Positions 49,705-54,074 of a stretch of DNA of 64,000 bases are shown one piece after another. The translations under genes were made by a program, and so were the position numbers. Source of the DNA: an uncultured Neisseriaceae bacterium (GTDB lineage Bacteria > Pseudomonadota > Gammaproteobacteria > Burkholderiales > Neisseriaceae); NCBI GenBank assembly GCA_946481965.1, contig CAMLPN010000001.1:1-64000 (forward strand), in the 5' to 3' direction. The notes under the pieces are model-generated. The model did not search any database and was not told the DNA's origin. It saw only the letters and a program-made list of their open reading frames with translations. Numbering within the stretch: the first letter of the stretch is position 1; every line of letters begins with the position of its first letter.

Positions 49705-51441
49705 TTACATTTTATCTAAAACTGCTAATCCCAATAGATCCATGCCTTGCTTTAAGGTACGCCCTGTTAGTCGAGCAATTTGCAGGCGGCTATTTCTCAC
49801 ATCTTCTTTTTCTTTCAAAATAGGATATTTCTCATAGAATCTGGAAAATGAAGAAGCGAGTTGATATAAGTAGCTGGCTAGATAGTGTGGCATACATTCT
49901 CTGGCAACAGAAACCACTATGTCTTCAAATTGTAATAACATACATAACAGGTTTTTTTCATCCTGTTCAGTTGCCATAATTGCATCATCAACATTGTTTT
50001 CAATTGATTGATCACTTTTGGTGAGCAAACTTTGTATACGGGTATAGGCATATTGCAAATACGGTGCAGTATTGCCTTCAAAAGATAACATGCTTTCCCA
50101 GTTAAAAATATAATCACTGGTTCTGTTTTTAGATAAATCAGCATATTTAATTGAAGATATACCCACAGCAGTAGCAATTCTATTAATTTCCTCCTCTGAT
50201 AAATCCGAGTTTTTTTGACGAACCAGTTTTGCTGCTCTTTCTACCGCTTCATTTAATAAATTAATTAATTTAACAGTGTTCCCATCGCGTGTTTTAAATG
50301 GTTTCCCGTCTTTACCCATCATGGTACCGAAAGCGACATGTTCCAGATTAACTTTGTCTGAAGCAAATCCTGCTTTATGAACCGTAGCAAAAAGTTCTTT
50401 AAAGTGTAAACTCTGGCGGGCATCTACCACGTACAAAATCCGGTCTGCTTTAAGTTGTCTAACTCGATAGCGGATGCAGGCTAAATCAGTAGTTGAATAT
50501 AGGAAGCCACCATCACGCTTTTGAATAATAAACGGTGTTGGATTTCCATCTTTATCTTTGATTTCATCAATAAAGACAACTTTAGCGCCGTCGCTGTCAA
50601 CCGCTATGCCTTTTTCCACCAGTTCATCAACAGTTGGCTGTAAATCATCATTATAAGTTGATTCACCTTTTATATTCGTTTCATCAACCAATAAACCCAA
50701 TTTTTTATAAACTTCTAAACAATGTTTTTGCGATATTTTTACAAAGCGTCGCCATAATTCCAGTACCTTCTCATCACCACCTTGTAACTGCACTACATAA
50801 CTTCTAGCGGTTTCAGCAAACTCTTCAGATTCTTCAAATCTTTTTTTTGCATTACGATAAAATTCTTCTAAATCAGCCAATGCTACCTGACTATCACCAA
50901 CTTTTTCGGTTTCAACCATATAGGTAATAAGCATACCAAATTGGGTTCCCCAGTCACCTTGATGGTCCTGACTAAAGGCATCATGTCCCAAAAATCTCAG
51001 TACACGATTTAACGCATCACCGATAATACTGGCGCGTAAATGACCAACGTGCATTTCTTTAGCCAAATTGGCAGAAGGATAGTCAATAGGGATAATTTGC
51101 TTAGGCTGTTTTTTTACCCCTAGGCGATCATTTTGAAGCACTTCTTTGGCTTGTTGACTTAGAAATTTTCCTGACAAAGATATATTAATAAATCCTGCCC
51201 CTAAAATTTCTATTTTTTCGGCTATACCTTCTTCTTTCAAGGTAGCTAAATTATTGACAATTTTTTCGGCGAGTTCGCGTGGATTAATTTTTAAGGCTTT
51301 TGCTGCGCCCATTGCGCCGTTGATTTGATAATGTCCGAATTCCGGTTTTGATGCCGGATACAGCAAAGTAGGGTAAGAAGATAAGCCACTATCTTGGAAC
51401 GCTTTTTCAGCGTATTTGTTTATGAATTTCTGTAATTCCAT
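49705..51441 (-). CDS. argS: Arginyl-tRNA synthetase, paralog 1
   Basis: 578 aa; [59 protein letters not shown]-term R-S-L-x-L-A-R-L-T-like block. Confidence 0.93.
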   Translation of the reverse strand: MELQKFINKYAEKAFQDSGLSSYPTLLYPASKPEFGHYQINGAMGAAKALKINPRELAEKIVNNLATLKEEGIAEKIEILGAGFINISLSGKFLSQQAKEVLQNDRLGVKKQPKQIIPIDYPSANLAKEMHVGHLRASIIGDALNRVLRFLGHDAFSQDHQGDWGTQFGMLITYMVETEKVGDSQVALADLEEFYRNAKKRFEESEEFAETARSYVVQLQGGDEKVLELWRRFVKISQKHCLEVYKKLGLLVDETNIKGESTYNDDLQPTVDELVEKGIAVDSDGAKVVFIDEIKDKDGNPTPFIIQKRDGGFLYSTTDLACIRYRVRQLKADRILYVVDARQSLHFKELFATVHKAGFASDKVNLEHVAFGTMMGKDGKPFKTRDGNTVKLINLLNEAVERAAKLVRQKNSDLSEEEINRIATAVGISSIKYADLSKNRTSDYIFNWESMLSFEGNTAPYLQYAYTRIQSLLTKSDQSIENNVDDAIMATEQDEKNLLCMLLQFEDIVVSVARECMPHYLASYLYQLASSFSRFYEKYPILKEKEDVRNSRLQIARLTGRTLKQGMDLLGLAVLDKM

Positions 51442-52064
51442 TATGAAACACCTTATCTTTTATATTTATATTGCTATGTATAGCATAAATTTATTGTAAA
51501 GAAAATTCTATTTATTCAAACAAGTTTTACAGTTTAGGTTAACATCGAATAGATTTTTCCATTATTTGCTAATACCAGATTGATAATGCCATCCTATATT
51601 AATAAATATCATTTTTTGTTTACTATGGAAACAAAAACTTAGTTAACAATTTATTTTGATATTATTAGCGATAATCAAATCTCATCATGTATGTATAATG
51701 AAAATATTTGCATCTATTGTTATGTAATTTTACCTTCTATATTTGGTAAAAAATGATTTTGATCAGAATAGTGTTGTAATTTGTATTCTGAACAATATTT
51801 AAAAAAGATATATCAATGCTGAGATTCAGATAAAAAACGCTATTTTTTGCTTTATCCTAAGACAAATTGATTTTTGTTACTATTTCAAGATAGGCATTCA
51901 ATTTTATTTTGTATGATATTGATGCAGAGAATTTGTGCTTCTCATCTTTGGTTAAGGAGGGTTAGTTATATTATTTATTTGCTTAAGAGGTGTGTTTTTT
52001 TATTAGTTTATATCCATGTAAAGATTAAAGGTAATGAAAATATAGATATTCGCAACCATAAAAA

Positions 52065-52096
52065 AAGGAATTGGTACAGGTTTGTACCAATTCCTT
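52065..52096 (-). terminator. Terminator of tRNA-Leu
   Basis: 13-bp perfect stem AAGGAATTGGTAC / GTACCAATTCCTT with T-run on the minus strand. Confidence 0.85.
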
Positions 52097-52124
52097 CGTA
52101 AATCTATGATTTACCAAAATTCAG

Positions 52125-52209
52125 TGGTGCGGATAAAGAGACTCGAACTCTTACACCTTTCGGCGCCAGAACCTAAATCTGGTGCGTCTACCAATTTCGC
52201 CATATCCGC
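52125..52209 (-). tRNA. tRNA-Leu(TAG)
   Basis: Minus strand GCGGATATGGCGAAATTGGTAGACGCACCAGATTTAGGTTCTGG...TTATCCGCACCA with class II variable arm. Confidence 0.95.
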
Positions 52210-52352
52210 TTTTTCAATTTCTGTAGAACAGAAAGAGACAATTATAGAATAATTTGTTATTACTGCCAAGTAAAAAAAGACACTTTGGTGATATGCAATT
52301 GAAAATTAAACCATAACTATTTTTTCAGATTAGTCATGGTTTGACATCATGA

Positions 52353-54074
52353 TTACATAACTTCCAAAGTATTGATTCCTAATAAATCTAAACCGTGTTT
52401 TAGTGTTTGCCCTGTCAGGCGAGTTAATTGCAGACGGCTTGAACGCAGATTTTCATCTGCTTTTAGGATCGGACAGGCTTCATAAAAGCGACTAAACAGG
52501 CTGGCAATTTGGTAGAGGTAATTAGCCAAATAGTGCGGATAGCCAGTGTCAGCTATACTGTTCAGTACATCTTCAAATCGGAGTAATTCAAGTGCCAGCT
52601 GATGCTCAAAAGGCTCTTGCAGATGAATTACTGCATTACGATCCCAGTTGCTCGCCTTACGAAATACACTTTGTACTCGTGTATAAGCATATTGCAAATA
52701 AGGAGCGGTATTGCCTTCAAAAGACAGCATGCTGTCCCAGTCGAAAATATAATCGCTGGTACGGTTCTTACTTAAATCCGCATATTTGACCGCACCTATA
52801 CCAACCACATGTCCTATATGATTAATTTCCTCTTCATTTAAGTCAGGATTTTTGCTGGCTACTAATGTTTTAGCACGTGCTATTGATTCATTTAATAAAT
52901 CCATTAATTTAATGGTTTCACCGCTACGAGTTTTAAATGGTTTACCATCTTTACCCATCATGGTACCAAAGGCAATATGTTCTGCCTGCACATTTTCCGG
53001 CAACCAGCCAGCCTGACGGGCAATGGTGAAAAGTTCAGCAAAATGCAGACTTTGCCGGGCATCCACAACATACAGTAAACGATTACCATGCAAGGTATCA
53101 ACGCGATAACGTATGCAGGCTAAATCAGTACTGGCATATAAAAATCCACCATCTTTTTTCTGAATAACAAATGCTGCCGGTTCGTTATCCTGATTTTTAA
53201 ATTCCTCCAGAAATACAACTTTGGCACCGTTACTGTCTACAGCTATACCTTTGGCTATTAATTCATCAACTGTTGACTGTAATTGATCGTTATAAAATGA
53301 TTCACCGGTCACATCGGCATCAGTCAGTTTCAACCCGAGCAGATTATATACTAACTGAGCATGTTGTAATGAAGTGGTAACAAATTGTTGCCACAGTTTC
53401 AAAACTGCAGGATCACCACTTTGTAATTTAACAACGTATTCTCGTGCCGTATTTGCAAACTGTTCGTCTTCATCGAAACGTTTTTTTGCATCGCGATAAA
53501 ATTGTTCCAGATCGGCCAGCTCCAGATCGGCACGGCCATTTTGATTTTGTTCAAACAGGTACGCGACCAACATACCAAATTGTGTGCCCCAATCACCAAC
53601 ATGATTTTGGGCAATGACATGATGACCAAGGTAGCTGAATACACGGTTAAGACAATCACCAATAATGCTGGATCGAAGATGACCAACATGCATTTCTTTA
53701 GCCAGATTAGGCGAGGAGTAATCAATTACCACTGTCTCTGGCAAACAGGTTTTGGTAACGCCTAAAAATTCATCTTGCAATGCCATTTGGGCAAATTGAG
53801 CTAATTTTTCAGGATGCAGACGCAAATTGATAAACCCGGGGCCGGCAACTTCAGCAGAAGCAAACAGACTATTTTTTTGTAAACTGGCTGTTATTTTTTC
53901 AGCCAGTTCACGTGGATTTTGCTGATTTTTTTTTGCAGCGCCCATCACACCATTAATTTGATAATCACCAAACTGATGATTTTTGGCAGTTTGTAAAATG
54001 ATTGGGCTATTTTCCAGCCCATTTGCAGCGAATGCCTGCTCAACTTCGGTGGCAATTAGTTGATGTAATTTCAT
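52353..54074 (-). CDS. argS: Arginyl-tRNA synthetase, paralog 2
   Basis: 573 aa; [68 protein letters not shown]. Confidence 0.95.

Follow-up and report, generated by a model that had tools for sequence, protein, structure and literature searches.

An accessory arginyl-tRNA synthetase gene linked to the arginine-deiminase module of Snodgrassella

Physical association of an arginyl-tRNA synthetase (ArgRS) gene with arginine catabolism has been described in Lactococcus lactis, whose arc cluster reads argR-argS-arcA-arcB-arcD1-arcC1... (PMC5300872, PMC7818446, PMC6586332). The locus analysed here resembles it in having an argS gene that adjoins the arginine-deiminase (ADI) genes; in the Lactococcus papers argS lies upstream of arcA and no additional housekeeping copy is mentioned. 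A second point of likeness is with TyrZ, LysU, IleRS2, SerRS2 and TrpRS1, each a second full-length synthetase kept for special conditions, although ArgRS receives no mention in the review of synthetase duplications that describes them (PMC9437257). Our literature search found no papers linking Snodgrassella to arginine deiminase.

Two ArgRS genes and an arginine-deiminase module

The window, by which we mean the whole 64,000-nucleotide stretch of DNA analysed, comes from a genome of Snodgrassella (Neisseriaceae, bee gut) that contains exactly two ArgRS genes. These lie as follows:

49705..51441, minus strand: argS-ADI (copy 1), accessory ArgRS of 578 amino acids, from its ORF, profile, domains and tree position
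52125..52209, minus strand: tRNA-Leu(TAG) between the two argS genes and outside the module (ARAGORN); it accompanies the housekeeping argS in module-less genomes
52353..54074, minus strand: housekeeping argS (copy 2), 573 amino acids, in an argS-metW-metX-mdh neighbourhood conserved in the genus

An initial annotation had described two full-length argS genes on one strand, flanking a tRNA-Leu and its terminator, and the coordinates, sequence identity and profile scores all agree with this. The terminator, a strong one, is at 52097-52064. The two proteins are 58% identical over 580 columns, score 547.5 bits (copy 1) and 561 bits (copy 2) against the TIGR00456 argS equivalog (cut-off 261.65), and both exceed the cut-offs for the N-terminal domain PF03485, the class I catalytic domain PF00750 and the DALR domain PF05746. 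It is the 573-residue copy that is the housekeeping enzyme genus-wide, being found in every usable Snodgrassella genome.

The 578-residue copy forms the end of a module, overlooked in the initial annotation, with the order extra tRNA-Arg(ACG)–antiporter–arcC–arcB–arcA / lrp / argS-ADI:

42911..42987, minus strand: third tRNA-Arg(ACG), at the downstream end of the module (ARAGORN)
43007..43036, minus strand: promoter of the extra tRNA-Arg, TTGACT-18-TACAAT, TTTGACNGTAT, conserved in G000, G070 and G075
43157..44632, minus strand: putative arginine/ornithine antiporter of the DcuC/YfcC family (PF03606), 'arcE-like' and not an APC-type ArcD, from its domain and position in the arc operon
44693..45628, minus strand: arcC, carbamate kinase (PF00696 and operon position)
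45650..46657, minus strand: arcB, catabolic ornithine carbamoyltransferase (NF002470, 677 bits)
46677..47921, minus strand: arcA, arginine deiminase (NF002381, 527 bits, cut-off 414)
47990..48020, unstranded: AT-rich palindrome-like block AAAATTAAATTTTTTTAATTATT upstream of arcA, a candidate regulator site kept in all eight arcA-lrp intergenic regions
49194..49658, plus strand: module-specific gene for an Lrp/AsnC-family (lrp-type) regulator (profile and domain)
49670..49699, unstranded: predicted terminator that separates argS-ADI from the convergent lrp-type gene
51476..51485, minus strand: extended -10 promoter of argS-ADI, TGYTATAYAT, conserved in an alignment of six upstream regions

The lrp-type protein is 90-93% identical across all eight ADI-positive genomes of the genus, with only ~37% paralogues elsewhere. 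As the genome yielded no ArgR, this protein is left as the natural candidate for regulating the module. Matches to FNR boxes upstream of arcA/lrp and of argS-ADI were scattered, with one or two mismatches, and none was conserved; in an Rfam scan, tRNAs alone were above threshold. The arcA-lrp intergenic region (47921-49194) measures 1.27 kb here versus ~0.6 kb in seven other genomes, ~650 bp of it being apparently private to the window genome. Codon usage in the module is marked by low GC3, with argS-ADI rich in AGA codons, and suggests modest expression. We considered arginine-poor proteins as a general trait of the module and rejected this, clearly low arginine content being limited to the antiporter. 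The genome also encodes argininosuccinate synthase. Elsewhere in the window, positions 32715-37091 hold a complete efflux operon (MFS transporter, HlyD-type adaptor and outer-membrane factor), and an ORF of 1130 amino acids (37692-41084) is PilY1-like; sister genomes (L148, L149, L153) have tandem paralogues in the corresponding position, as well as fragmented ones in decay.

Descent and distribution of the module

The initial annotation had proposed a phylogeny of both copies against Neisseriaceae ArgRS, and this we carried out with trees of 102 and 63 sequences. Six argS-ADI proteins, namely the window copy and its five orthologues (78-86% identity to it), form a single long-stemmed clade that falls with the deepest lineages of the Neisseriaceae. 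Among cultured strains, S. communis LMG 28360 and S. alvi Nev4-2 possess close orthologues. A clade joining them to the housekeeping ArgRS of Snodgrassella is rejected (AU p=3.1e-5), placing the two copies in separate lineages. The argS-ADI clade groups instead with the sole ArgRS of another Neisseriaceae genus (g4; support 97/79), a kinship with modest, not decisive, support. As to a donor, nothing closer than 63% was found in Burkholderiales or in a scan of genome contigs.

The arc genes appear to have a different history. Among the Neisseriaceae genomes drawn in an order-wide search for arcA, only the window's was positive, and the nearest homologues found there outside Snodgrassella were 66% identical; the arc genes therefore look foreign to the family, while the ancestry of argS-ADI looks Neisseriaceae-like and separate from theirs. 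The arc clusters of beta-proteobacteria surveyed previously contain arcD only and no arcE (PMC5300872), so the DcuC/YfcC-type carrier seen here may indicate a gamma-proteobacterial origin.

Our survey of the genus covered 14 Snodgrassella genomes, a small set from one genus in which one assembly is only 60% complete. The same eight genomes carry arcA and the module regulator, and both genes are missing from five near-complete genomes. An intact argS-ADI is present in six of the eight, always beside arcA/lrp and across two different sites, and in none of the 14 does it occur without arcA (6/8 versus 0/5, Fisher p=0.02). This co-occurrence is weak functional evidence, as linkage alone makes co-loss likely. 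The two remaining ADI-positive genomes lack a working copy, and argS-ADI is therefore not essential to ADI: in S. gandavensis (G076) it is a pseudogene, with residues 1-27 and 428-578 left and interrupted by stops, whilst in strain App4-8 (G069) it has been deleted and the same transposase stands on both flanks. In the latter strain the module is bracketed by two copies of a transposase-like ORF (L144:8526-9350 and L144:16018-16842), beside Rhs-like ORFs.

At the first site (the window, G078 and G080) the module adjoins the tRNA-Leu/housekeeping argS/metW/metX region, with a tRNA-Val/Asp cluster on its other side in the window and G080. At the second (G070, G071, G075 and G076) it occupies an unrelated place and the housekeeping argS is elsewhere. 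The near-tandem layout that first drew attention to these genes thus reflects the position that the module occupies in one sub-lineage. That copy 1 arose by recent tandem duplication of the housekeeping argS, followed by sub-functionalisation, might be suggested by the adjacency of the two genes, but this is confined to the window and two sister genomes; 58% identity, the AU test (p=3e-5) and the unlinked module site in four genomes leave the idea with virtually no chance of being correct, and we regard it as refuted by tree and synteny. The tRNA-Val/Asp cluster near the housekeeping argS comprises three genes in most genomes and eleven in G071 (L153:10332-11828). The housekeeping argS of G077 (L155:8600-8860) is split near its end by an apparent frameshift, possibly a sequencing error.

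Four of the six genomes with an intact argS-ADI also have an additional tRNA-Arg(ACG) in the module. Module-less genomes have two tRNA-Arg(ACG) genes, each preceding another tRNA gene; a third occurs in the genus only beside the ADI module, next to the carrier gene. In the window it is identical at 77/77 positions to both housekeeping copies. The same sequence is found in G070 and G075, with one change in G071 and five in G076, and the gene is absent from the modules of G069, G078 and G080. Synthetase and tRNA copies have thus decayed together in G076 and are both gone from G069. Homology is recognisable between the tRNA promoters of the two module sites, which differ from the promoter of either housekeeping locus, and for this reason the extra tRNA-Arg has probably long belonged to the module. 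We do not claim that it is co-transcribed with the arc operon, since a separate, conserved promoter precedes it and there is a hairpin downstream of the antiporter gene.

Constraint and active-site substitutions in argS-ADI

Where computable, dN/dS for argS-ADI is 0.03-0.07, indicating purifying selection. Synonymous sites have almost saturated between the window and strains from bumble bees, in module and core genes alike, and the module is therefore an old component of the genus. These data bear on the view that argS-ADI is a xenologue that is neutral or of slight use, a foreign synthetase caught with the module that supplies generic ArgRS dosage and is being lost stepwise. The pseudogene and the deletion described above, the five near-complete genomes without the module and a foreign-like base composition (GC3 in S. 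communis of 0.28 versus 0.41 for housekeeping argS) would all fit such a history. Strong purifying selection across a near-saturated synonymous distance does not, nor do the promoter kept in all six genomes and the retention of 136 of the 145 columns in which other ArgRS are at least 98% invariant, and we consider this view quite unlikely.

A further suggestion, that argS-ADI has a non-translational role—as a sensor of arginine or Arg-tRNA acting over the arc genes, or in Ap4A/alarmone synthesis—would have a parallel in accessory synthetases such as LysU (PMC9437257), and the gene does adjoin that of a regulator. With all ArgRS domains, the tRNA-binding DALR domain included, and nearly all invariant residues kept, and with an accompanying tRNA-Arg that argues for charging, we judge such a role highly improbable. 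The AlphaFold model of argS-ADI (pLDDT 90) is consistent with a folded enzyme, and we infer from its sequence that it is catalytically competent.

The initial annotation took copy 1 for the unusual form and copy 2 for the canonical one. Both points are upheld. All six argS-ADI orthologues share DYPSAN and HLRA without variation, and QDH is likewise clade-invariant. The DHQGDWG motif, proposed as a mark of copy 1, holds in part: its D is clade-wide but its Q is private to the window genome, the other five orthologues having DHVGDWG. The clade-invariant states S122P, P124A, S137A and N159D, placed in the active site by motif, adjoin the amino-acid pocket and are found in none of 96 other ArgRS; S122P, P124A and N159D are among the near-invariant columns changed in all six argS-ADI proteins. 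Residues 115-165 contain 5 of 14 argS-ADI substitutions, a marginal enrichment (p=0.04) over an interval chosen after the fact. The H131-G133-H134 residues of the HIGH-type motif are invariant over 50 sequences, as are D120, N125, Y315, D319 and Q343, which we take to be direct arginine contacts, as in solved ArgRS structures. A probable effect of the changes around the DYS-PN and NH-GDWG strands is a retuning of substrate kinetics, although they could equally lower activity.

One form of retuning would be discrimination: argS-ADI might serve to reject an analogue that builds up with the pathway, such as citrulline, or canavanine taken in with legume pollen, and not be tuned to low arginine. 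The clade-invariant substitutions beside the pocket are suggestive here. Moreover, canavanine is poorly rejected by most ArgRS (PMC10018355), the antiporter belongs to the DcuC/YfcC family, and citrulline is well transported by the ArcE exchanger of S. pneumoniae (PMC5300872). Set against this are the invariance of the presumed direct arginine contacts, the persistence of a housekeeping ArgRS that would mischarge anyway unless displaced, and the lack of any analogue-degradation or editing gene among those seen in the module. On balance we think discrimination unlikely. The earlier proposal of an inhibitor-resistant ArgRS has found nothing in its support, the neighbours being arc genes, the lrp-type regulator, tRNAs and metW/metX.

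A proposed accessory synthetase for arginine catabolism, and comparable known systems

Membership of an arginine-deiminase module brings to the fore another earlier proposal, that copy 1 is inducible or tuned for low arginine. The reading we favour, with a little better than even confidence, is that argS-ADI is the module's accessory ArgRS, which maintains the charging of tRNA-Arg as ADI depletes arginine. Once the module is expressed, arginine deiminase would turn cytoplasmic arginine into citrulline; an extra ArgRS, together with the tRNA, would enable the cell to trap more of the scarce arginine as Arg-tRNA, and arginine catabolism would then not starve translation. Competition between the two enzymes is plausible since the published Km values for arginine are in the same range, at 5.9 uM for ArgRS of Pseudomonas canavaninivorans (PMC10018355) and 5.8-34.5 uM for arginine deiminase of Lactococcus (PMC7818446). 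Counting against this reading are the constant retention of the housekeeping argS, the two ADI-positive genomes that manage with no working argS-ADI, the missing extra tRNA in G078 and G080, and the codon usage that points to modest expression. The expression pattern, kinetics and physiological benefit so assigned to argS-ADI are predictions from its sequence and setting. More ambitiously, the whole might be a transferable catabolic module with its own charging kit, in which a separately descended, re-tuned ArgRS and an extra tRNA-Arg have been retained because, without them, ADI would win the competition with translation for arginine; this we put forward tentatively, at somewhat below an even chance.

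Catabolism and translation compete for one amino acid, and the protection of charging meanwhile has been little studied. A module with its own synthetase and tRNA would, if true, be a natural and testable solution to this problem, and would provide a defined accessory ArgRS, a class that the 2022 review of duplicated synthetases does not include. The fixed active-site substitutions could inform on arginine affinity and analogue discrimination, and Snodgrassella offers matched species for comparison: ADI-positive with argS-ADI, ADI-positive without it, and ADI-negative.

How unusual the arrangement is can be gauged from 398 evenly drawn Pseudomonadota genomes, 169 with a countable ArgRS match and 57 with arcA. 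Among the 36 arcA-positive genomes with a countable ArgRS, two ArgRS were found only in the window's genome. Two clearly separate full-length ArgRS genes turned up in just one further genome of the Pseudomonadota sample (G687), which lacks arcA.

Compared with the L. lactis cluster as published, Snodgrassella has, attached to arc, a second argS of a different lineage, which comes with a promoter of its own, a regulator of the Lrp type and an additional tRNA-Arg. Unlike TyrZ and the other accessory synthetases named above, argS-ADI is linked to catabolism of its cognate amino acid and not to antibiotic resistance or a stress response. The staphylococcal ACME is likewise a transferable arc cluster that confers an additional trait on some strains, but its host is unrelated and the Snodgrassella module is without an SCC context; we know of no argS or tRNA-Arg in ACME. 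PylRS2/tRNA-Pyl2 (PMC9437257) similarly combines a second synthetase with a second tRNA gene. In Snodgrassella, by contrast, the extra tRNA is identical to the housekeeping one, which rules out an orthogonal synthetase/tRNA pair.
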